From assembly GCA_013373375.1 (NCBI GenBank), contig JABXHY010000053.1, positions 1 to 35,313 of the forward strand: 35,313 nucleotides of DNA, given 5' to 3'. The notes below the pieces were generated by a model. The model did no database searches. It saw nothing but the letters and a program-made list of their open reading frames with translations, and was not told where the DNA came from. Shown in pieces: positions 21,370-35,017 of this stretch; within the stretch, counting starts at the first letter, position 1; the number at the start of each line of letters is the position of its first letter. Origin of the DNA: Gammaproteobacteria bacterium (GTDB lineage Bacteria; Pseudomonadota; Gammaproteobacteria; Enterobacterales; Kangiellaceae). A program made the translations under genes and the position numbers.

Positions 21370-21425
21370 AAACACAGCTTATTGGCGTATTATTACTAAG
21401 TCAGTCAATTTGCTAGGTTTTTGTT

Positions 21426-21677
21426 ATGAAGGTGATTTGCCCCGAGTGCGGTTCAAAAAGTCGTATCCAGAAATCAAATAGAATGAGTACCAAATACGCC
21501 GATTTGTATTGCTCATGCAGTGACCCAGAGTGTGGGCATACTTTCGTGATGAACTTGTCTTATAGCCACACTCTCAGCCCCAGTGCTAAAACCACCTCGC
21601 AGTTAGCTTTTAATATGGTTAAAGCTTTAGCACCAGAACAAAGAGCAGAGCTACAACAACAGCTTTCAATGTTGTAG
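21426..21677 (+). CDS. ogr: Ogr/Delta-type zinc-finger late activator
   Basis: An 83-aa protein with the Ogr/Delta layout. CPECGSKSR at the start, then CSCSDPECGHTFV, give the four Cys ligands of the single zinc finger (CxxC...CxxxxC). The family pattern NLSYSHTLSPSAK follows. Ogr proteins bind about 55 bp upstream of late promoters and contact the RNA polymerase alpha subunit. In P2 ogr lies beside attP; here it is downstream of portal Q on the same strand, perhaps as part of the P-Q transcript. It ends three bases from a convergent gene with no clear terminator between them. Confidence 0.92.
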   Translation: MKVICPECGSKSRIQKSNRMSTKYADLYCSCSDPECGHTFVMNLSYSHTLSPSAKTTSQLAFNMVKALAPEQRAELQQQLSML

Positions 21678-21680
21678 AAC

Positions 21681-21932
21681 CTATAACTTGAAACAGGGTG
21701 AATCCGCTTCTGAAGCCATCTCGATAATACTCAAGATGGCTTTTTGCTTTTCTGCATCCAAATTGCCTTTCATGTCTGCCATGATCAGGCCCGTAATGTA
21801 AACGCCTGCGTGTCGCATTAGTTTGGTTGCCTCGCTACACGCGACACCATCAATCACAATTTGCAACGCCGCAAGTGAGACATCTTCCTTTTCGTAAACC
21901 TGATCGGTTGGTACTTCTTTTAAACCAGACAT
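21681..21932 (-). CDS. LexA-controlled 83-aa protein, candidate SOS antirepressor
   Basis: An 83-aa acidic, mostly helical protein of no family I recognise. It has an excellent ribosome-binding site (AGGAGG five bases before ATG). A perfect-looking LexA box starts 21 bases upstream, so expression should follow DNA damage. In coliphage 186, a P2 relative, the LexA-controlled gene tum lies in the corresponding region near the portal-side genome end and encodes an antirepressor that inactivates CI. I infer the same job here from position and regulation only. I see no sequence similarity to Tum, and another SOS-induced role is possible. Confidence 0.7.
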   Translation of the reverse strand: MSGLKEVPTDQVYEKEDVSLAALQIVIDGVACSEATKLMRHAGVYITGLIMADMKGNLDAEKQKAILSIIEMASEADSPCFKL

Positions 21933-21953
21933 TTAGCCTCCTAACTGACGATT

Positions 21954-21973
21954 TACTGTATATTAATACAGTA
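21954..21973 (-). promoter_or_regulatory. LexA (SOS) box
   Basis: TACTGTATATTAATACAGTA is a 20-bp palindrome with CTGT-N8-ACAG and an A+T-only centre. It matches the gammaproteobacterial LexA consensus (TACTGTATATATATACAGTA) at 18 of 20 positions. On the minus strand it overlaps a plausible promoter (TTGTTA, 17 bases, TAATAT), so bound LexA would block the 83-aa gene. Confidence 0.9.
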
Positions 21974-22054
21974 GTTTTAGTCTAACAAATTTTATGGGGA
22001 GTTTTGTGCCCTATGCTGATTTTCCTGTCAGCGTTTGGACCGGCGACTTCATGC

Positions 22055-22225
22055 CTAACTAGTCACGTGATTGGCTCTGAGTTCATACATATATATTGCA
22101 TCCCTCATTATTCCCATATGTTGGTAAATGGCTATTCGCTCCTCATCAGTCTTAGCTTCACTTATCAAATAGCTTTCGAAGACTTGCACTAATATGTATG
22201 TAGAAACGTTCTGGTAGGTCACCAT
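22055..22225 (-). CDS. Small 56-aa protein of the control region
   Basis: An unbroken 57-codon frame starting MVTYQNVSTYILVQVFESYL and ending YELRANHVTS. AAGGAG lies five bases before the ATG, a near-ideal ribosome-binding site in an otherwise non-coding A+T-rich region. The product is acidic and helical, without motifs. It reads toward the LexA-controlled gene and could be a second member of the same control locus. No family recognised. Confidence 0.6.
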   Translation of the reverse strand: MVTYQNVSTYILVQVFESYLISEAKTDEERIAIYQHMGIMRDAIYMYELRANHVTS

Positions 22226-22739
22226 AAATTCTCCTTACTCTCGAGATGACTGTCTTTGAGCGAACATCTTAAATTTCTCTTGAGAAGCAAACTATCTACG
22301 CCGCTAAAAAATGTTACTGACAATAACATCAATTAAAATCGGTTGCTTCTAAGCCAAACTATCACTGCTTTTGTATTTCCAAAGTCGCCCGTAACGACTA
22401 GGTTAAACCGTGATTAGAAGGCACTAACTTACCAGCATTATTTTTGTCTCTTCGTTTTGAGCGGCAATTTGTGCATAAACAAAACATCACTACCAAGGGC
22501 AGTGCTCAAGACGCAATTGTGCTTAGTAAAAATCGAGATGAGGGAATTTTGGAAAGGAGGGTGTATTTATAGTTGCGGTTTGATGGTTGGGTGTCAATGA
22601 CCTTATAAGGCGAGCTATGTGTGTATATCGCCCATTCCGAGGGATATACACACGCACACTTTTTTGGCCCCATATAAATCAATGAGTTACGCAGTCAACT
22701 TTGTTCTGCTTTTGAGGGATAGATCACCCAACACTCCCA
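22226..22739. other. Non-coding control region, possible cos location
   Basis: About 510 bases with no supported gene. At its right end GTGTGTATATC (22619-22629) and GATATACACAC (22643-22653) form a perfect 11-bp hairpin with a 13-base loop, followed shortly by six T on the plus strand. Flanking it are inverted arms: TTTGATGG-TTGGGTG (22579-22593) against CACCCAA...CCATCAAA (22725-22743). In P2-like phages cos lies between the Q end and the replication genes, which corresponds to the 21354-24598 interval; this structured stretch is the best candidate, but I cannot recognise the cut site. Confidence 0.4.
22619..22653. repeat. Perfect 11-bp hairpin in the control region
   Basis: GTGTGTATATC and GATATACACAC around the loop GCCCATTCCGAGG. 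On the plus strand it is followed after six bases by TTTTTT, so it could act as a terminator for plus transcripts. The G+C-rich loop in an A+T stem is also reminiscent of a protein-recognised DNA element such as cos or an origin. Confidence 0.5.
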
Positions 22740-23387
22740 TCAAAAGTAAACGGCTTTCGCATTGCACAACGCGCAATACTTGATAACCATTACCCAAAGC
22801 TCTTCGATATCTGAAGACTCAAAGTAACCGGCATCCCCTAACCTTTGTCCTACATGTATAAGATTGCCTAGCTCGTCTTTAAAACGAAAACAAGCACAGT
22901 AGCGATTGGCTATAGGTTCGATATCAAATGCAATGTATCTAATGTGGTTATTGAAGAAGTTGAAGCTTGAGAGGTCCCATTCCGTGCGAAATGATGTAGG
23001 CCAATTGGGTTGCTGTTTGATGATGGGTCTAGGTTGGATTGGTAAGGAGGCTTGGGTTTCTTTATCGAGTATATCGAGCACCCACTTTCTGAACTGTTTG
23101 GCTATCGAGGTTCTAGCGAACATAGCGATAAGGTGAGCGCCACGAAGGGAGAAAAATCTAGTCGACTTGCTGCGAAGACTGTTGTTGATACCATTCACCG
23201 TCAAATTGACGGTCATTGTCATTCCATTAGTGAACTCGTCTTTATTTCGGTTAAATATCTTCCGAACTGCCGTTCGTGGATCTGTATAGCCTAGTGCCGT
23301 ACCAATTTGGTACGCATCCAAATAAATCTGATTGTTGCGTTCAACTACATCGAAATTCGTATTTTGAAAAGTAAGTGCTGAAGTCAT
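22740..23387 (-). CDS. BRO-N domain regulator / antirepressor-like protein
   Basis: A 215-aa protein. Residues about 5-115 match the BRO-N/P22-Ant type domain (FDVVERNNQIYLDAYQIGTALGYTDPRTAVRKIFNRNKDEF, then RFFSLRGAHLIAMFARTSIAKQFRKWVLDIL). This DNA-binding domain is found in phage antirepressors and regulators. The C-terminal 100 residues are unassigned (SFNFFNNHIRYIAFDIEPIANRYCACFRFKDELGN). GGAGG lies five bases before the ATG. GTACCAA motifs occur inside its 5' end as a perfect palindrome and upstream, suggesting autoregulation. Confidence 0.85.
   Translation of the reverse strand: MTSALTFQNTNFDVVERNNQIYLDAYQIGTALGYTDPRTAVRKIFNRNKDEFTNGMTMTVNLTVNGINNSLRSKSTRFFSLRGAHLIAMFARTSIAKQFRKWVLDILDKETQASLPIQPRPIIKQQPNWPTSFRTEWDLSSFNFFNNHIRYIAFDIEPIANRYCACFRFKDELGNLIHVGQRLGDAGYFESSDIEELWVMVIKYCALCNAKAVYF
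23299..23313. promoter_or_regulatory. GTACCAA palindrome within the BRO-N gene start
   Basis: GTACCAA-T-TTGGTAC is a perfect 15-bp palindrome about 75 bases into the BRO-N coding region. The same half-site recurs upstream at 23431-23438 (GTACCAAT), 23462-23469 inverted (GTTGGTAC) and 23638-23645 (GTACCAAT). Four copies in about 350 bp suggest an operator set, most simply for the BRO-N protein itself. Confidence 0.5.
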
Positions 23388-23462
23388 GGTGACCTCCGTG
23401 AGAATTATTTTGCTAAATCACCACTCAAAGGTACCAATCAATGGGTGGTGAACTGAACAAGG

Positions 23463-23684
23463 TTGGTACTACCGCTCTCACGAAACGGCCAGCCGAAGCT
23501 GCCCTGCCCAGCCCACCATAATGCAGATAGTACAGTCCGATATATTGGACTTACTATGTTTAGATGTGCCGAAGCCATACACATAAAAAAACCAGCAAAA
23601 AGCTGGTATATGTGCAGCGTGAGAGTTCAAAAACGGGGTACCAATCCCGGCACTGGATTTTGCCAGTGCACGTATAATCTATAA
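23463..23684 (+). CDS. Possible small Ash-like phage protein
   Basis: A 73-codon frame with a TTG start (or 42 codons from the ATG in the GLTMFRC segment). The C-terminal part KKPAKSWYMCSVRVQKRGTNPGTGFCQ reminds me of a short motif shared by small phage proteins of the Ash type, found near regulators in P2/P4-like elements. No good ribosome-binding site is visible. A candidate small RNA is predicted on the opposite strand over its 3' half, so the similarity could reflect a conserved RNA and not a protein. The resemblance is from memory. Confidence 0.3.
   Translation: MVLPLSRNGQPKLPCPAHHNADSTVRYIGLTMFRCAEAIHIKKPAKSWYMCSVRVQKRGTNPGTGFCQCTYNL
23585..23606 (-). terminator. Intrinsic terminator upstream of BRO-N gene
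   Basis: Minus strand: CCAGC (23606-23602), five-T loop, GCTGG (23596-23592), then seven T. It would end the candidate small RNA, and also any transcript reading out of the early operon past gene A. Confidence 0.75.
23585..23671 (-). ncRNA. Candidate small RNA (about 87 nt) or attenuated leader
   Basis: On the minus strand a promoter TTGACG (23705-23700), 16-base spacer, TATAGA (23683-23678) would start RNA near 23671. The RNA would form a 7-bp hairpin GCACTGG-CAAAAT-CCAGTGC (23669-23650), a small CGGG...CCCG hairpin around GTACCAAT, and end in CCAGC-TTTTT-GCTGG followed by seven T (23606-23585), a textbook intrinsic terminator. It lies about 200 bases upstream of the BRO-N gene on the same strand, so it may also be an attenuated leader of that gene. 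No known RNA family recognised. Confidence 0.5.
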
Positions 23685-23759
23685 TAGAATGAGGGAAAGC
23701 GTCAATGGTGATATGTGCGGGTATATACGGATATTTGTGGACATATGAGACATATGAGA

Positions 23760-23805
23760 TTGACGAGACGGTCAGAATGATCGAGAATTGTTCTAAATTA
23801 GAACA
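23760..23805 (+). promoter_or_regulatory. Promoter and palindromic operator of the 54-aa/165-aa operon
   Basis: TTGACG (23760-23765), a 17-base spacer and GAGAAT (23783-23788) form a plausible sigma-70 promoter. Directly after it lies TGTTCTA-AAT-TAGAACA (23789-23805), a perfect 7-bp inverted repeat that would overlap the transcription start, the classic place for a repressor. Just upstream is a tandem GACATATGA duplication (23740-23757). Confidence 0.55.
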
Positions 23806-23861
23806 CTAAATTACTATTAATTTCCCTTTAGGCAATCCCGCCGCTACTTTGGAGATATCAC

Positions 23862-24026
23862 ATGAGCACTGCTGCAAAAGCGAATGCAGCGATGATGAGT
23901 GGCAAAAAGCTATCATCTTACGATTTACCTAAAGACGTAAAACGTAAAATTGCTGCACGTCGCTACTCCCAACAAGAAATTAATGAGCGTTTCAAAGCCT
24001 ACCGAGCATCAAAGGTGGCTTGTTAA
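23862..24026 (+). CDS. Small basic 54-aa protein
   Basis: A 54-aa protein, MSTAAKANAAMMSGKKLSSY then DLPKDVKRKIAARRYSQQEINERFKAYRASKVAC. The second half is strongly basic and helical, consistent with nucleic-acid binding. GGAG stands seven bases before the ATG. It ends three bases before the next ATG, so the two genes form a tight unit under the palindromic promoter. It could be the autorepressor that binds that palindrome, or the smaller partner of a two-gene module; both are inference. Confidence 0.65.
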   Translation: MSTAAKANAAMMSGKKLSSYDLPKDVKRKIAARRYSQQEINERFKAYRASKVAC

Positions 24027-24029
24027 CTG

Positions 24030-24527
24030 ATGTGGAAACATAATACATTTGGCGACATCATTGAAGAAGAGGGTGATTTCGTAGGCTATGTGGCCTACGC
24101 CCTCTACAAAGAACAAAAAGTCAAATGGATTCACGCTTACAAAGATAAGACAGGCGAATTTCCCACTCCTACTCAAATCGAAATCTATTTCAACACCTTC
24201 CATTCATCACAAGATTGCATCGACAAGTTCCGAGATGATGCAGAGCGAATGCTAAACGAGTACATTGATTTCTCGTTTTCAGAAGAACTACAAGCATACC
24301 AAGAAGCCGTTAAAGATGAAGCGATCGTACAAGCCGTTCATAAGCCGTTTTGGACGGGTGTAAAAGAAAATGTAGTTGCAGGTATTGTAGCATCTGTAAT
24401 TACAGGAATAATTTCTATAGGACTATGGCTACACTCCGAAATGAAATCCGCTGAACGTAGAGCAGACTTGATTGACCGCTTTCCTGTTGCTGAAGAGTTT
24501 AAACAACTATTAAAAGACACTGAGTAG
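24030..24527 (+). CDS. Single-pass membrane protein, partner of the 54-aa gene
   Basis: A 165-aa protein: a soluble N-terminal domain (about 1-115; MWKHNTFGDIIEEEGDFVGYVAYALYKEQKVKWIHAY), one membrane helix near residues 119-138 (VVAGIVASVITGIISIGLWL), and a short charged C-terminal tail. I do not recognise a characterised family. It stands on the strand opposite to the flanking BRO-N and A genes, so it is an independently controlled insert. Together with the basic 54-aa protein it could be a lysogen-expressed cargo pair. Confidence 0.7.
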   Translation: MWKHNTFGDIIEEEGDFVGYVAYALYKEQKVKWIHAYKDKTGEFPTPTQIEIYFNTFHSSQDCIDKFRDDAERMLNEYIDFSFSEELQAYQEAVKDEAIVQAVHKPFWTGVKENVVAGIVASVITGIISIGLWLHSEMKSAERRADLIDRFPVAEEFKQLLKDTE

Positions 24528-24598
24528 TTCGCTATACAAGTAACTAATTGGAATTCATTTTAATTTTACTAATTTAACCCCATCTTAAATTTGCAAAT

Positions 24599-27385
24599 TC
24601 ACACCAACGGCCAGTCGTCATGGTCTAGTTCGTCCATGTACTTAGCCCACGGTTTGTTTTGTCTTTCGGTTGTGCCAAACAGCGCCAAATCTGGCTGCTG
24701 GTATTCAAATTCGTTGTCGTCGTAGTCCGTATCGAACATGTTGATATCACTCGGGCTACGTGGTTTCGTCTCTGTTTGCTGGTTTTGGTCAGGTTCGATG
24801 AGCCAGCTCGTGTCTACTTCAGGCTTGTTTTGGTAAATAAGGTGATCAGGTTGTCGCTCTGTGGCTGCTAACCTGAGTTTTACGCTTTTCTCTTTGCTGA
24901 GTTTTATCCAGTGACCTTTGAATAAGTCGCTTCTGAAGCCATCAGATAGCCCGTATTCGTCTATTAACCTGGCTATTTCATGTTCCAACATTGGACTGAG
25001 TGTCCGACCTGTAGCTTCGCCACTTTGGGGCTGCGTACAGTTATTGACAGAACTCCGAGAGGCAGCGGAGCTGCCAATGGCGGTCGCTTCGCTCCCTTGG
25101 GTGCTCGCGTCCGGCTTGGTCACTTCCACAAATGACACCGTGCGCTTTTTGAATTTCCAAGTGGATGGATTGTTGCTTGGTTTCTCAAACTCGTATTCCA
25201 CTTGCTTTTTGACTTCTGGCTTTGCCTTGGTGGTAATGGTGAAGTTCTTCAGGCGCGTTTTGATTTGCACACCGGATGCATCAAACCCTTTCAACTTACT
25301 CACCACATCACCGTGCGGAGAGGCGAACTCTAACTTTTCATACACATTGGTGATCAGCAGGTCTTTGCGTTTAACGAACGGACCACCTTGCCCCATGATG
25401 TAACCGTGCCAGTTGCCTGTATCGGCGGCTTTCATTACTTCGATGGCGGTGCTGTTTTCGTTTTCCATGCTTGGCTGGTAGATCTCACCCAGCAGGTTAA
25501 ACAGGTATTTGCTGTCAAACTTCTTACTTGCTTTGATTAGTTCCGCTGGAATTGGTGGACCAACGAGCTTTCTGCCTGCTTTGACTTCCAGCTCTTCGTA
25601 AATGTTGTAAAGCTGCTGGTAAGTAAGCTGGGTTAGATAATCCATAAAGCTGGCTTTATCGTTATTGGCGAATCGGCGCAGCTCTCGGTAAGTAGTGACA
25701 GGTGCACCACCAAAGAATTGGAACTGGCGAATGTTCCAGCGGCTTTTCCATGCGCTGACGTTCTTCGCCATGTCTTTCACTGACTTGCCTGTTTCGTCGG
25801 AAACAAGATCATCCATCGCGTAACCGTCGATGTTTTTCGAGATGTATTTTGCGATGTAGCCTGTTGCTGTGCCTTTCTCTGGGTCTATGTAGCCAAAATC
25901 ACAACGAGGTTTGTAGTTGAGCGGCCCTTGAATCGCTTTCTTCTTCTCGGCGCGTTTCGGGTTGCGATCAAAGCTTGGGCTGAGTTCTTCGCGGTCTTCC
26001 TGCGTCGCGTATGAGATGAAAATGTCACGCACTTGCGCCACATCTTCTGGTTTAACCCAAATGAGTAAGTGCCAGTGCGGTGTACCATCGTGATGCGGCT
26101 CAGCCACACGAACGCCAAACCAACGCAACCCTTCATTACTCAGTTTGGTTCGCATTAAACCCCAAACATTATTGAGGTATTGCTGTGCATCGCGTGGGCT
26201 GGCTCCGTTCCAGTGGTCAATAAAGCCACCTTTCTTATAGGTGTTGTGGTACTTAGATGGAGTGGTCAACGTTAAGAACAGACCTTGCAGCCCCAGCTCG
26301 TTACCAATGTCTTCACAGCCACGGCAGCGCACCATCAATTCATGTCTACGAATCGCAGGATTGGCTTGGCTTTTGATCACCATGTCTGCAAGCGCGAACT
26401 CTTCTTCTGTGTCTTCATCACGCAGCAACATGTTTTGGATAGCGTCCCAGTTACGTTTTTGCTGGGCTTTGTGCTCGCGAATGCAATCCCAAGATGCATA
26501 AGGCGAGGCACTGTTCGAGACTTGCCCCATGGCAATGGCTAGGTGTTCACGCATGATTTTGCGAGTTCTGACTAAGCGACCAAACCACCAGTTATCATCT
26601 TCTAGTCGCAATAGGTCTTGCGCTGCAGATAGGCCGCTTTGCTTGACGTATTTTCTAGGTGGTTTTATGCCAAAGGTTTGGCTGACAAAACGCGCGGCCA
26701 CTTCGTAAGTCATGACCATACATGCATCAATGTCTGGTTCTGATTCTGGTTGATGCACTTCGCGAATTTTGGCGGCACTTGTCGCGATGTAAGACTTGAG
26801 GATTTTAGCGAGCTGGTACGACATTTCTTTCAGCTCGTCGCGCTCTAATTCTGCCAACAAACGAGATTTAACTGGCTTGCGGTTTTTCTCGGCTTGGTCA
26901 AAGTCAAATGTGAGCTGTTTGCGTGGGTAGTCTTCTGGGTTGCCAGACTCTGTAAAGAACACGGGATGAAAGGCATCTTCTTCACCTTCTCCGAATTCTT
27001 TAGACAGTAGAGCAACCTTTTGTGTGGTAGGCAGAGACTTGTATTGTGCCAGTACCTTTTTAGCGCGGTCGGCGGCAGGTGCAACCTTAGTTCGTAGAAA
27101 AGAGTTAGCCTCTGTTCGACCTTCTTTTTCCAATACAGTGGTGTAACGCTTTACGAAATACCGTGTTAGATAGTCCGGTAAATCTTTGATTCGGTCTTTT
27201 ACCCATGCGAAGTCTTGCGCACTGGCTTCAAACAGCCTGCGTTCAAGTACGCTTAGGTCTTCTGGCTCTATATCAACACGCGGACGATACGCAGGTTGAA
27301 TACAAGCGTCCCTCTCATCAATAGCGATAAGAGGGGCTTGCCATGGGCGCTTAAGTGGTTTTACTGGTTGATAGTAGGTTTGCAT
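24599..27385 (-). CDS. A: Replication initiation endonuclease A (HUH, gpA family)
   Basis: A 928-aa gpA-type rolling-circle initiator that nicks the origin and stays covalently attached to the 5' end. The HUH metal site is PHWHLLIW (His437/His439). The catalytic tyrosines lie in TGYIAKYISK (Tyr510 and Tyr514), matching the paired Tyr of P2 A. It is longer than P2 A (761 aa), with an extended, partly disordered C-terminus (about 730-928). The P2 origin lies inside gene A, so the origin is probably within this gene; I did not locate the nick site. Its ATG overlaps the previous stop (TGATG). Confidence 0.93.
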   Translation of the reverse strand: MQTYYQPVKPLKRPWQAPLIAIDERDACIQPAYRPRVDIEPEDLSVLERRLFEASAQDFAWVKDRIKDLPDYLTRYFVKRYTTVLEKEGRTEANSFLRTKVAPAADRAKKVLAQYKSLPTTQKVALLSKEFGEGEEDAFHPVFFTESGNPEDYPRKQLTFDFDQAEKNRKPVKSRLLAELERDELKEMSYQLAKILKSYIATSAAKIREVHQPESEPDIDACMVMTYEVAARFVSQTFGIKPPRKYVKQSGLSAAQDLLRLEDDNWWFGRLVRTRKIMREHLAIAMGQVSNSASPYASWDCIREHKAQQKRNWDAIQNMLLRDEDTEEEFALADMVIKSQANPAIRRHELMVRCRGCEDIGNELGLQGLFLTLTTPSKYHNTYKKGGFIDHWNGASPRDAQQYLNNVWGLMRTKLSNEGLRWFGVRVAEPHHDGTPHWHLLIWVKPEDVAQVRDIFISYATQEDREELSPSFDRNPKRAEKKKAIQGPLNYKPRCDFGYIDPEKGTATGYIAKYISKNIDGYAMDDLVSDETGKSVKDMAKNVSAWKSRWNIRQFQFFGGAPVTTYRELRRFANNDKASFMDYLTQLTYQQLYNIYEELEVKAGRKLVGPPIPAELIKASKKFDSKYLFNLLGEIYQPSMENENSTAIEVMKAADTGNWHGYIMGQGGPFVKRKDLLITNVYEKLEFASPHGDVVSKLKGFDASGVQIKTRLKNFTITTKAKPEVKKQVEYEFEKPSNNPSTWKFKKRTVSFVEVTKPDASTQGSEATAIGSSAASRSSVNNCTQPQSGEATGRTLSPMLEHEIARLIDEYGLSDGFRSDLFKGHWIKLSKEKSVKLRLAATERQPDHLIYQNKPEVDTSWLIEPDQNQQTETKPRSPSDINMFDTDYDDNEFEYQQPDLALFGTTERQNKPWAKYMDELDHDDWPLV

Positions 27386-31067: not shown

Positions 31068-31742
31068 ATGAGTAAGGTCTATATGGACGCAAGAAAACCT
31101 ATTCTTCCATACGAGTATTTGAAGGGTAATGAGTTCGTTGAAAAGCTAAAGGACACTCTAAACTGCAGATCTCACCAAGAATTAGCTGAATTACTTCACA
31201 TTCCGAAGTCTACTTTCTCTACTTGGAGTAAACATGACCGGACTTCACATGAGCTCATAATTCGACTTCATTTAGCCTTGGGCATTCCGGTTCAGGAACT
31301 TGCTTTGAAGCATGATGAACTCAAACAGCCAACAGAAGAGACAAATGAACCACGAGCTCTCTACAGCCTGAATACACTTCAGCAGCCTCCATTGACACAG
31401 CAAAGCAGCACAGTTGTTATCCGTAGTTTTTGCCTATCAAACGGCAGACTACTCGATACTGGCGAAATACCGTATGCAGCGCGCATTTTTAATAGCTGGA
31501 ATTTGAATAACAAAGACTCTGTTGAGATTGAAACGAACGAGAATCGCTACATCGTTGACAAAACGCATAACGACGCAGTTAGCGGAAACTATCTCATCGA
31601 GATAAACGGACGAATGTCGATCAACTACATTCAGCGGTTACCAAACAAACTAGCGGTTGTTTTTGGTGACAACACGGTTGAAGTAGCAGAAGAAGATATT
31701 AAAGTACTTGGCCGGGTGGCGGTAACATTAGGGAAATGCTGA
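31068..31742 (+). CDS. cI: CI-type repressor
   Basis: A 224-aa lysogeny repressor. The N-terminal helix-turn-helix lies at about 25-75 (LKDTLNCRSHQELAELLHIPKSTFSTWSKHDRTSHELIIRL). The C-terminal domain (about 115-222) resembles the 186/K139 CI oligomerisation domain. The usual S24 SMxP serine motif is absent at the expected place (KTHNDAVSGNYLI), so RecA-stimulated self-cleavage is unlikely. An alternative start, Met6 at 31083, has AAGG five bases upstream; the listed start has no clear ribosome-binding site. It is followed by a TGATG-coupled small gene. Confidence 0.88.
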   Translation: MSKVYMDARKPILPYEYLKGNEFVEKLKDTLNCRSHQELAELLHIPKSTFSTWSKHDRTSHELIIRLHLALGIPVQELALKHDELKQPTEETNEPRALYSLNTLQQPPLTQQSSTVVIRSFCLSNGRLLDTGEIPYAARIFNSWNLNNKDSVEIETNENRYIVDKTHNDAVSGNYLIEINGRMSINYIQRLPNKLAVVFGDNTVEVAEEDIKVLGRVAVTLGKC

Positions 31743-31918
31743 TGTTAGATCAACTTGCAGAAATTTCAGGCTTAAAAGAAAAGCTCGGCAAACATCTTGA
31801 AGACCCAGTGAACTGGGTAGAATTTATAAAAGCCAATAACCTAAATAAAGAACAACAACGGTTTTGGCGAGATCACTTCAACTTACCTCATAGCTTTGAT
31901 GGTGAGTTGGAAGCGTAA
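31742..31918 (+). CDS. 58-aa protein coupled to CI
   Basis: MLDQLAEISGLKEKLGKHLE begins a small protein rich in Trp, Phe and charged residues (WVEFIKANNLNKEQQRFWRDHFNL). I chose ATG 31742, which overlaps the CI stop (TGATG) and has AGGG eight bases upstream; the ATG two codons earlier has too little space. Being coupled to CI it should be made in lysogens. No family recognised. It could be an immunity-related cofactor or the first gene of the cargo that follows. Confidence 0.65.
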   Translation: MLDQLAEISGLKEKLGKHLEDPVNWVEFIKANNLNKEQQRFWRDHFNLPHSFDGELEA

Positions 31919-31951: not shown

Positions 31952-33124
31952 ATGAAAAAGAAACTACAGCAGTCGGACAGAGAATTCTCTCATTCTAGAC
32001 GCTATCTTTCGTCATTAAACAAAGGCACAAAAAGCAAGCACGTTTTCAAAGGTAGCGGAAGTACCATAATAGAGCAAATGTCGTTGAATACACTATTTGG
32101 TAAGCCTATTTTAGGCGTACCGACGATAATGAATTTTGTCGCGACAAAGCTAGATGACGTTTCAGCAAAGTTTTTGGCAGATCTTGATACCGTACTTTCC
32201 AACTATAGACACATTTACTTATCTTTTGCGAAAACGAAAGACGTCAAACTTCCTATGCTTCTTACTATTTACGCAGTCCAAGAGAAGTACAATGCAAAGA
32301 TATCGATCATCTGGTCAAAGGAGTCTGGGTGGGTTAACCGATTGCTATCAGAGTCCGGTAGGTTTTCTTCTGCAATGTACAGAGACGAGTGCCTATTTAA
32401 TTCAGAGGTGCCATACATACCTGTTATAAGTGGCAGTAATCAAGAGTTTTTAGATTTGTCTGATCACCTCGTCGATGCGATTAACGATAAGTATTATGGT
32501 GGGTGCATGCCTGATAATATTGAATCTCGTATATCGCAAGCAATTATCGAGACGCTGGAAAATGTTGGTCGTCATGCCTACCCACACGATCCCGATGAAA
32601 TGAATAAAAAATGGTGGTTAATCTGTTCTGTATCTCAACCAAGGCAAAAAGACGAAAGGTTAATGTACCTAGCAATATATGATTCAGGTCGTGGTATCCC
32701 CCTATCCTTTGAAGATAGCAAAGTATTTCAGCACCGTGTTAGGCAGCATTACCCCAATGAGTACAATCAGTTGATACATGGTACAGAAAAGGATGGGTCT
32801 AAATCTGGGCGAATTAGACAATTTGTCAGAACGATGAATGCCATGATTTCACCACTAAGAGAGTCTATCGGTGATTCAGGCTTGATTTATGCGTCAATGA
32901 TGCATGATATGACAAGACTAGACGACCCAAACCATGGCCAAGGCAGTGTATCTATCAAAGATGTGGTTACTGATGACAAGGACAGTAACTTAATAATTAT
33001 TAGCAATAAAGGCTGCTACCAATATAATAAGGGTAGCGAAGAAGAACACATAATGTTCGAATTACAAAATGAATTACCAGGTACGCTTTTACAATGGAGT
33101 ATTAAATTAGATGAGCTCTGTTAG
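31952..33124 (+). CDS. GHKL-type ATPase (HATPase fold), first gene of cargo module
   Basis: A 390-aa protein. The C-terminal half has Bergerat-fold motifs: an N-box IIETLENVGRHAYP (about 199-212; Glu and Asn as metal/ATP ligands) and a G1 box DSGRGIP (about 244-250). GQGSVSIKDVV further on may belong to the ATP lid or last strands. No histidine-kinase dimerisation helix or sensor is visible. The N-terminal 170 residues are unassigned (KPILGVPTIMNFVATKLDDV; RHIYLSFAKTKDVKLPMLLT). I prefer ATG 31952 to TTG 31937. It overlaps the STAS-like gene by 14 bases. This pairing recalls anti-sigma/anti-anti-sigma partner switches. Confidence 0.8.
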   Translation: MKKKLQQSDREFSHSRRYLSSLNKGTKSKHVFKGSGSTIIEQMSLNTLFGKPILGVPTIMNFVATKLDDVSAKFLADLDTVLSNYRHIYLSFAKTKDVKLPMLLTIYAVQEKYNAKISIIWSKESGWVNRLLSESGRFSSAMYRDECLFNSEVPYIPVISGSNQEFLDLSDHLVDAINDKYYGGCMPDNIESRISQAIIETLENVGRHAYPHDPDEMNKKWWLICSVSQPRQKDERLMYLAIYDSGRGIPLSFEDSKVFQHRVRQHYPNEYNQLIHGTEKDGSKSGRIRQFVRTMNAMISPLRESIGDSGLIYASMMHDMTRLDDPNHGQGSVSIKDVVTDDKDSNLIIISNKGCYQYNKGSEEEHIMFELQNELPGTLLQWSIKLDELC

Positions 33125-33464
33125 AACCATAATGGTTACCAAAGAATTTCATGCGAGACCAAAAGGTCGCTACAAAACGGACGCACCAGGTTGCGAATTT
33201 ACAGCAGGCGAAGTTTTTCGAGAAAACGTTTTAGCAAAGGCATTAAAAGAGAATGACAAAGTCATTGTCGACCTCACTGGTTACAATCGATATGGAAGGT
33301 CTTTTTTAGACGAAGCGTTTGGTGGGCTAATCTCTCGTGATAATTTCACAAAAGATGAATTGGATCAGAAGTTAGAAATTAAGCATGACACTGTAGAAAA
33401 CTTTGTTACAACGGCTTACGAACGAATCCAAGCGGCAGAAAACAAGAGACTAGCAAATGGCTAA
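33111..33464 (+). CDS. STAS-like DUF4325 protein
   Basis: A 117-aa protein. The segment VIVDLTGYNRYGRSFLDEAFGGLI (about 51-74) is the signature of the STAS-like DUF4325 family, often encoded next to, or fused with, HATPase domains. In classical partner switching, the ATPase phosphorylates or binds a STAS protein at a Ser/Thr; here Ser64 in GRSFLDEAF or Thr56 is a possible site. GGAG lies 11 bases upstream of the ATG. It overlaps both neighbours, so the three proteins are made together. Confidence 0.8.
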   Translation: MSSVRTIMVTKEFHARPKGRYKTDAPGCEFTAGEVFRENVLAKALKENDKVIVDLTGYNRYGRSFLDEAFGGLISRDNFTKDELDQKLEIKHDTVENFVTTAYERIQAAENKRLANG

Positions 33465-33984
33465 GGGCTTTGTTTTTGAGTGGGTTTTTATCAGTTGGAT
33501 GCTCAGTTTGTTCATCCATCACCACAACATTAAACGAGCATCAATCTCCTCTTTAAAAGATGACCTAATTGAACTACTAACTAAGGTCACTGAGTTTAAG
33601 TGGCTAGAAAGTTCTGACGTACCTCTCTATCAAGAAGAGAGGTACAACACCAAGGTTTCGCGTGTATCTTGGAAACTAAAGCAGTTAAACAAACTTGCTT
33701 CTACTACTCTGGTTTCGGAAGAAAAACTAAATCCCTTATATAACTTTGATTTCGAAACTTTTACCAATCCAACTACGAGTGAACAAGATAAAGAAGCTCT
33801 AAAATATTCTCTTCAAGAATGTTGCGATGACATAATTGATACAGTTGAAAAAAACCATTTCAACAAAATCATGTCCTCAAAACTCTACATTTTTTGGTCT
33901 GCTCGGCACTCAGTTTTTGGCATTCTATCCGGACTTGGCATCGTATATTTGTTTCTGCAAATCATGAGATTACTCTTTTCCTAG
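33457..33984 (+). CDS. Two-helix membrane protein, third gene of cargo module
   Basis: A 175-aa protein with an N-terminal hydrophobic segment (about 4-20, GFVFEWVFISWMLSLFI) and a C-terminal one (about 151-172, VFGILSGLGIVYLFLQIMRLLF). These enclose a charged 125-residue domain (VTEFKWLESSDVPLYQEERY; DKEALKYSLQECCDDIIDTVEKNHF). With both ends in the membrane, the middle is either cytoplasmic or periplasmic. Coupled by eight-base overlap to the STAS-like gene, it is a candidate membrane effector or sensor of the module. No family recognised. Confidence 0.7.
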   Translation: MAKGFVFEWVFISWMLSLFIHHHNIKRASISSLKDDLIELLTKVTEFKWLESSDVPLYQEERYNTKVSRVSWKLKQLNKLASTTLVSEEKLNPLYNFDFETFTNPTTSEQDKEALKYSLQECCDDIIDTVEKNHFNKIMSSKLYIFWSARHSVFGILSGLGIVYLFLQIMRLLFS

Positions 33985-33997
33985 GGTCAGTATTACA

Positions 33998-35017
33998 GTG
34001 TCTATACGTAACCTAAAAGACGGAAGCAAAAAGCCGTGGATAGTTGAGTGCTACCCAAACGGACGTGCAGGAAAGCGCGTCCGTAAACGTTTTGCGACTA
34101 AAGGCGAGGCGGTATCTTACGAACGGTACCTTCTCAAAGAAATCGACGATAAACCGTGGTTAGGTGAAAAAACCGAAAGCCGTAGTTTGTTAGATATGAT
34201 TGACCTTTGGCAAGAACGACACGGCCAGTCTTTAGTTCACAGTAAATACACTTACAACAAACTAAAGGTTATCGCTTTGGCAATGGGCGACCCGCTCTAT
34301 ACCAAAGTGACCCCTTCGATGTTCACGGATTTTCGCAGCCGACGTTTAGCAGGTGAAGTCGCAGATTTGCGTGGTAAGAAAGTGGCGGTGTCTTTTCGGA
34401 CCTGCAATAACGAACAAGATTTGCTGAACTCAGTGATTGTAGAGTTGATAAAAATGGGTGAATGGAAGTGTGCAAACCCGTTGACCTCGGTTCGTCAATT
34501 TCGCCTGCATGAACCGGAAATGGAGTTTTTGACAGTCGATGAGATGCGATTGCTGATTAGTGAGGCAGAAAAACACACTCACCCAGATTTACACAAAGTG
34601 ATTAAGCTATGTTTGGCAACTGGCGGACGATTCAGAGAAACGAACAATCTCACTGGTGCCCAGTTGACTAAGTACATGGTGACGTTCACGCAAACCAAGG
34701 GCAAAAAGAATCGATCGGTAAAGATAACGCCTGAACTTTATGACCTTATTTACAAGGAAGGTTCGCAGCGTCTTTTCAGTATCGGGTATTCGACGGTTTA
34801 TCGCTTCATCGTTAGAAACGTCCCCCGCCTAAATCAGCAAGCAGCTCATGTTCTTCGTCATACGTTCGCAAGCTATTACATGATGAACGGTGGCAACATC
34901 ATCGCCCTTCAACGCATTCTTGGTCACTCTGATATCAAACAGACAATGCGTTACGCCCACTTAGCACCCGATCACCTAGAAGATGTAGTCACAAAAAATC
35001 CGCTTACGATGCTGTAG
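33998..35017 (+). CDS. int: P2-type tyrosine integrase
   Basis: A 339-aa site-specific recombinase with GTG start. The N-terminal arm-binding region (about 1-60) and core-binding domain (about 60-165) precede the catalytic domain. Visible active-site residues are Arg211 (GGRFRE), Lys235 (TKGKK), His284 and Arg287 (HVLRHTF), His310 (LGHSD) and Tyr319 (TMRYAH). It stands beside attR, reading toward the core about 150 bases away, as in P2. It inserts the phage into the 3' end of the ycgN-like gene and, with the Cox-like protein, should excise it. Confidence 0.95.
   Translation: MSIRNLKDGSKKPWIVECYPNGRAGKRVRKRFATKGEAVSYERYLLKEIDDKPWLGEKTESRSLLDMIDLWQERHGQSLVHSKYTYNKLKVIALAMGDPLYTKVTPSMFTDFRSRRLAGEVADLRGKKVAVSFRTCNNEQDLLNSVIVELIKMGEWKCANPLTSVRQFRLHEPEMEFLTVDEMRLLISEAEKHTHPDLHKVIKLCLATGGRFRETNNLTGAQLTKYMVTFTQTKGKKNRSVKITPELYDLIYKEGSQRLFSIGYSTVYRFIVRNVPRLNQQAAHVLRHTFASYYMMNGGNIIALQRILGHSDIKQTMRYAHLAPDHLEDVVTKNPLTML

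Follow-up and report, generated by a model that had tools for sequence, protein, structure and literature searches.

The window analysed here is one whole contig (JABXHY010000053.1, 35,313 bases) of the 4.5 Mb genome, in 96 contigs, of a gammaproteobacterium of the family Kangiellaceae. It holds a P2-like prophage, in which Pfam and PHROGs identify the gpA, terminase, integrase, CI, Cox and CII families. Between the CI repressor and the integrase, both recognized by Pfam, lie three genes on the forward strand, hereafter genes 1 to 3 or the triad, which encode a predicted GHKL kinase, a DUF4325 STAS-like protein and a membrane protein, respectively (Table 1). Genes 1 and 2 overlap by 14 bases and genes 2 and 3 by 8 bases. 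The open reading frame (ORF) of gene 1 as listed opens at TTG, 31937; we use the ATG given in Table 1. The GC content of the module is 0.375-0.41 versus mostly 0.45-0.50 for the structural genes, which bears out the impression of A+T-richer DNA in an earlier note made from the letters alone; the borders that this note had assigned are confirmed as well.

The earlier note had also claimed that the overlapping genes act as a unit, and their recurrence in other replicons agrees with this. From a DUF4325 scan of viral contigs, 80 of 155 relatives were kept, some of them near-identical. In 78 of these 80 loci (all but L074 and L076), an ORF of 200 residues or more precedes the DUF4325 gene, ending within 200 bp of it or overlapping it; 70 of these ORFs have a strict D-x-G-x-G motif. 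All 80 loci have an ORF of 60 residues or more within 200 bp downstream. When the window and two plasmid loci are added, 71, 70 and 72 distinct sequences of genes 1, 2 and 3, respectively, result. Across 68 loci, the distance matrices of the three proteins agree with each other (r of 0.81, 0.86 and 0.75; 0 of 2000 permutations each), a co-inheritance that rules out a chance neighbourhood. Genes 1 to 3 are a real three-gene unit in many phages and several bacteria.

Gene 2 is a single-domain protein, in which Pfam finds only DUF4325, as noted earlier, and no winged helix-turn-helix (wHTH); NCBIfam matches of genes 2 and 3 are all under the cut-off. Its AlphaFold2 model (predicted local distance difference test score 95.7) has a helix at residues 63-75 and a C-terminal helix at residues 96-116. 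Structural similarity search by VIA-align listed RsbS (4.9) and TM1442 (4.7) among unrelated rows reaching 5.7, and returned no VapS or CapS rows, which is not evidence of absence. A phmmer search of the PDB with gene 2 of one relative gave chance-level rows. The gene 2 profile weakly matched Escherichia VapS (PDB 9z7o, E 0.17), which led to the comparison with VapKSC.

In VapKSC, as described by Chambers et al. (EMBO J June 2026, PMC13373217), a STAS-GHKL kinase resembling CapK is combined with an antitoxin of the STAS type and a toxin of the PIN type. The authors propose that phosphorylation of VapS at S48 frees VapC; the S48E mimic lost rescue, and lost binding in a pulldown done once, and the operon gave about 2-log protection against phage Bas42. 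A vapKSC locus (L120) encodes a kinase, a VapS that matches PF14213 (3.4e-13) and a PIN protein (1.1e-11), and a vapKSC-like locus (L148) is annotated on a Deinococcus gobiensis plasmid. Gene 2 and VapS share a Pfam family; direct hhalign comparison of gene 2 with the L120 VapS is weak (prob 30.8).

Ser64 of gene 2, which lies where helix 63-75 begins, is found in all 70 distinct sequences, the window included, a count in which one scan pattern favoured this motif. It is also kept in 10 of 10 chromosomal loci found by profile or Pfam model, where position 63 is Ser in nine and Ala in one. Among the 70 sequences, residue 63 is Ser in 52 and Arg in 18, namely the window and 17 relatives. Judged from this conservation, Ser64 is the best candidate acceptor, and VapS S48 aligns to residue 63 (Arg63 in the window), one before the invariant serine. 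In some proteins (L099 and L118), DUF4325 follows HTH and HATPase-like parts in a single chain; those that were read carry Ala in place of the serine (GQAFADE) and probably make no use of that phosphosite.

Gene 1 consists of an N-terminal α/β region with homology to the VapK STAS region, followed by a SpoIIAB-type GHKL domain. By Pfam alone the HATPase, also recognized earlier, is weak (0.12, under the cut-off), NCBIfam gives no match and Pfam finds no HTH in gene 1. A profile of 52 family rows matches SpoIIAB with a best E of 5.7e-4, and SpoIIAB is the top fold match of the predicted structure. The motifs that we take to be the N, G1 and G2 boxes are almost invariant among the 71 distinct kinases (Table 1). 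Moreover, hhalign aligned the gene 1 family profile with the L120 VapK over both domains (residues 87-389, prob 97.1, E 6.3e-11), and gene 1 is therefore homologous to VapK.

The two families differ at their aromatic residues. CapK senses single-stranded DNA (ssDNA) through W68, as does VapK through F54 by prediction and mutation (PMC13373217). The column of the VapK STAS-domain Trp, presumably that of the ssDNA-stacking F54 and W68 judging from two VapK sequences, is Asp97 in the window kinase; among the 71 kinases it holds Lys in 27, Ser in 11 and Arg in 8, and by the printed rows it is aromatic in four (Tyr in L023, L024 and L093; Phe in L002). By contrast, the hallmark pair of the gene 1 branch, Trp221-Trp222, aligns with Ile-Phe in both VapK sequences compared. 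The pair lies 17-18 residues past Asn204, and in CapK the lysines contacting ssDNA are 19 and 21 residues past N218 (PMC13373217). If N218 is the counterpart of Asn204, as we infer, a rebuilt nucleic-acid site around Trp221 and Trp222 is possible.

Gene 3 has two hydrophobic stretches, near residues 2-20 and 150-172, with 19-residue Kyte-Doolittle maxima of 1.51 at residue 2 and 1.95 at residue 156. No family was found in Pfam (to E 1), PHROG or PADLOC. Pairwise homology links 82 of 83 gene 3 proteins, and 52 of the 72 distinct relatives, the window included, have an N-terminal hydrophobic segment, versus 80 of 523 control ORFs of comparable length on the contigs of these loci (p 1e-22). A C-terminal segment is present in 20 of the 72, and 13 have no segment at the cut-off used. 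In 44 of the 52, the first segment has its more positive flank on the C-side, so the middle part of gene 3 should face the cytoplasm; a cytosolic location is predicted. Gene 3 is also the most variable of the three proteins (its median pairwise identity is 0.15, that of gene 1 is 0.24 and that of gene 2 is 0.41), as a sensor could be, and in the libraries above the window protein has no known toxin domain. Signals might hence flow in reverse, with gene 3 as sensor or anchor, gene 2 as relay and gene 1 acting on another partner, as in a stressosome. We regard this as unlikely: in the three annotated regions read, gene 3 is not followed by a sigma factor, a cyclase or any comparable output gene, and the third gene of the homologous vapKSC operon is a toxin (PMC13373217).

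Altogether, we consider it fairly probable that the triad is a kinase-controlled, toxin-antitoxin-like module, carried by the prophage beside its lysogenic genes, in which a VapKSC-like switch acts on a membrane effector. At rest, gene 2 would bind and restrain gene 3. Upon infection or damage, gene 1 would be activated and phosphorylate gene 2 at Ser64, at the start of the second main helix; phosphorylated gene 2 would let go of gene 3, and the freed protein would disturb the inner membrane, so that growth stops before the incoming phage matures. The module is probably anti-phage and would be expressed in the lysogen. The earlier note had likewise pictured a defence switch running from the ATPase through the STAS protein to the membrane protein; that outline is strengthened by the phage protection reported for the homologous VapKSC (PMC13373217) and by the defence genes in sister phages described below, and what changes is the step itself, in which phosphorylation of the STAS protein would free a held effector.

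Several points weigh against this interpretation. The ssDNA-sensing aromatic of CapK and VapK is not kept in most of the gene 1 family, the one-residue shift of the serine makes phosphorylation less convincing for the clade to which the window belongs, and PADLOC, searched up to E 1, recognizes none of the triad proteins. The chromosomal neighbourhood points neither way: 111 neighbours from 10 chromosomal loci match 71 PADLOC models, versus 27 for 103 control proteins (1e-10), a tally in which a single protein can be matched by many models and which includes generic ATPases and helicases. These 111 were scanned out of 184 eligible neighbours in 16 loci, and the controls are 10 arbitrary stretches, with 7 of the 10 genomes shared with the loci. 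Strong single matches include retron I-B ATPase-Toprim and reverse transcriptase (RT), PD-T4-4_A and a type III methyltransferase; among 10 neighbour proteins checked, an RT lies in L149 (UG29 model, 1.1e-45) and PDC-M30A in L156. The control stretches also have strong matches, to PDC-S01, SspH and mad8.

Table 1. Positions of the triad, its motifs and borders, other window features and related loci (window coordinates unless a locus is named)
Feature	Position	Strand	Basis or remark
Gene 1, predicted kinase, 390 residues	31952..33124	+	ATG at 31952 agrees with the starts of aligned relatives
N box, Glu200 to Asn204	32549..32563	+	Glu200 and Asn204 each in 70/71 kinases
Trp221-Trp222, hallmark of gene 1 branch	32612..32617	+	each in 70/71 kinases
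G1 box DSGRGIP, residues 244-250	32681..32701	+	Asp244 70/71, Gly246 71/71, Gly248 67/71
G2 box, Gly329-x-Gly331	32936..32944	+	Gly329 70/71, Gly331 71/71
Gene 2, DUF4325 STAS-like protein, 117 residues, predicted substrate and inhibitor	33111..33464	+	PF14213 4.3e-16
Arg63-Ser64, start of helix 63-75; Ser64 candidate phospho-acceptor	33297..33302	+	conservation and model
Gene 3, membrane protein, 175 residues, predicted effector	33457..33984	+	hydrophobic stretches
CI repressor, upstream border of cargo slot	31068..31742	+	Phage_CI_repr PF07022 2.5e-21, Phage_CI_C PF16452 7.6e-14
ORF of 60 residues overlapping CI end	31736..31918	+	no family; membership in module not established
Tyrosine integrase, downstream border of cargo slot	33998..35017	+	Phage_integrase PF00589 2.2e-16, PF24624
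Second A+T-rich stretch	21400-24600		GC about 0.41-0.43
Bro-N protein	22740-23387	-	inside second A+T-rich stretch
Protein of 165 residues	24030-24527	+	inside second A+T-rich stretch; one membrane segment by eye
CI-integrase slots of sister phages	L174 2074-4361, L175 2470-4501, L176 2676-4485, L177 3993-4484, L178 2954-4487		
DUF4041/T5orf172 genes upstream of triads	L004 4624-5967, L005 4290-5963, L006 4288-5874, L008 6399-7982		
vapKSC locus	L120 859-2637		
vapKSC-like locus	L148 3938-5784		
Triad relative in Mu-like phage	L007 6001-8051		
Fused DUF4325 proteins	L099 685-1701, L118 670-1710		

The slot itself can be compared among relatives of the prophage. The window integrase is 78.6-82.1% identical to those of the seven nearest Vibrio phage records; six of the seven were read, and with two taken as one phage they represent five distinct phages. 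Their slots contain SIR2 and a PH domain, PD-T4-4 A and B (PADLOC 6.4e-185 and 6.5e-18), an acyltransferase and a GDSL lipase (phage ZF14_PE001), a PH-domain protein, and DUF6414 with two small genes, respectively. PADLOC matches occur in two of the five slots, and the triad in none. The CI-integrase slot of Vibrio P2-like phages thus looks like a cargo hot spot. In Vibrio-type prophages (L004, L005, L006 and L008), a DUF4041/T5orf172 gene lies just upstream of the triad; it is absent from the window, where a 60-residue ORF comes after CI. A NOV_C/DUF3427 gene lies just downstream of the triad in L005. Elsewhere in the window, portal and gpA flank a second A+T-rich stretch, which contains a Bro-N protein and a small putative membrane protein and is possibly a second cargo site.

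This setting bears on two further explanations. The triad adjoins CI and integrase, its GHKL domain is of the anti-sigma kind, and CapK/CapS, related to VapK/VapS, regulates transcription (PMC13373217), so that the module could control prophage or host transcription, as an anti-sigma partner switch or an induction regulator, rather than defence. We find this improbable, given a gene 2 of one domain and without a wHTH, the presence of the module on two plasmids as well, and the unrelated genes in the slots of five close sister phages. Small membrane proteins expressed in lysogens can act in superinfection exclusion, and gene 3 might block phage DNA entry in this way, with genes 1 and 2 only tuning it and no cell death; the acyltransferase and lipase of ZF14_PE001 could likewise alter the surface. 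To this we also give little credence: a kinase-like gene kept in 78 of 80 viral loci is more than a constitutive blocker needs.

The co-occurrence check suggested earlier found the triad in phages, on plasmids and on chromosomes. It is carried by Marinobacter phage AS1, by one conjugative and one mobilizable Vibrio plasmid, and apparently by Francisella phage KIRK, there between CI and integrase (PMC7924643). Among 40 genomes of the window's own family, only the window's own has it. In the phylum, the gene 2 profile matches 14 of 398 genomes, nine strongly with the window's own included; the third gene is hydrophobic in seven of the eight other strong loci (not in L137), and of six weak loci (E 7e-5 to 7e-4), the five read on the matching strand (L142-L146) showed no triad. 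In L142 and L124, a kinase and DUF4325 are paired, but a third gene for a membrane protein is not evident; such pairs may be regulators or represent other effector classes. Of 30 loci from a DUF4325 search, the 13 that were read comprise two triads (L110 and L126) and one vapKSC besides lone genes and fused regulators, and a scan of genome contigs confirmed at least two loci. Searches with gene 1 gave two matches among 72,556 plasmids; tblastn with genes 1 and 3 gave none among 50,697 phage records, the kinase of a viral relative as query found only AS1, and complete E. coli genomes searched by megablast contained no match to L063, a viral relative. A relative (L007) whose kinase is 57-58% identical lies in a phage that is Mu-like by eye, not P2-like; the module may therefore move between phage types.

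Tentatively, and with less confidence than in the switch itself, the triad might represent a large, unnamed branch of kinase-STAS immunity that gates a membrane effector, triggered via Trp-Trp or the membrane protein rather than an ssDNA clamp, carried by temperate phages often in the repressor-integrase slot and used against rival phages. If so, serine-kinase/STAS switching would be a control layer of immunity with swappable effectors, one chassis serving nuclease (VapC) and membrane outputs, and partner switching would reach outside transcription. A function would then be at hand for stand-alone DUF4325 proteins, for PHROG 3364 (function unknown) and for membrane proteins unnamed in the libraries tried. 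Mutations of the shifted serine and of the Trp-Trp pair would offer a direct handle on the trigger and the chemistry.

The triad can be set against four known systems. Gene 1 shares the SpoIIAB-type kinase fold with N and G boxes, and the likeness of the parts to a partner switch drawn earlier is supported. However, it has an extra N-terminal domain compared to SpoIIAB and RsbW, and the third partner of SpoIIAB/SpoIIAA and RsbW/RsbV is a sigma factor, whereas gene 3 has no sigma domain (Pfam to E 1) and is, as also stated earlier, a membrane protein with two hydrophobic stretches. PD-T4-4 occupies the same slot in a sister phage, but its proteins, an AAA ATPase and a partner, are unrelated. 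CapK and CapS resemble the triad in pairing a GHKL kinase with a STAS domain and a STAS substrate, and in 348 of 443 cases a known immune operon comes after CapKS (PMC13373217). Yet CapS has a DNA-binding wHTH and CapK an N-terminal HTH, both lacking in genes 2 and 1 by Pfam, and CapKS usually, though not strictly, precedes an immune operon, whereas the triad ends with gene 3 and then the integrase. Identity with CapKS was rejected for want of a wHTH.

VapKSC is the system most like it, with the same order of STAS-GHKL kinase, small STAS protein (PF14213 in L120) and effector. VapKSC proper was rejected, as the module has no PIN gene. Searches with a VapS fragment gave one DUF4325-annotated match, on a Leptotrichia plasmid, none in viral contigs, and matches in 3 of 369 genomes. 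The words "transmembrane" and "DUF4325" do not occur in the main text of PMC13373217, and no description of a kinase-STAS-membrane module was found in the open-licence literature, a scope that leaves aside subscription papers and preprints. The suggestion of a new system holds for a variant with a membrane effector, and not for the kind. Compared to VapKSC, the triad of the window and of most relatives lacks the clamp aromatic and has its Trp-Trp pair at another site, its candidate acceptor serine is shifted by one in the alignment, and a membrane protein stands where VapKSC has a VapC-like nuclease. VapKSC, described in June 2026, founded the kinase-STAS-effector kind, of which the triad is a variant with an effector of a different class.
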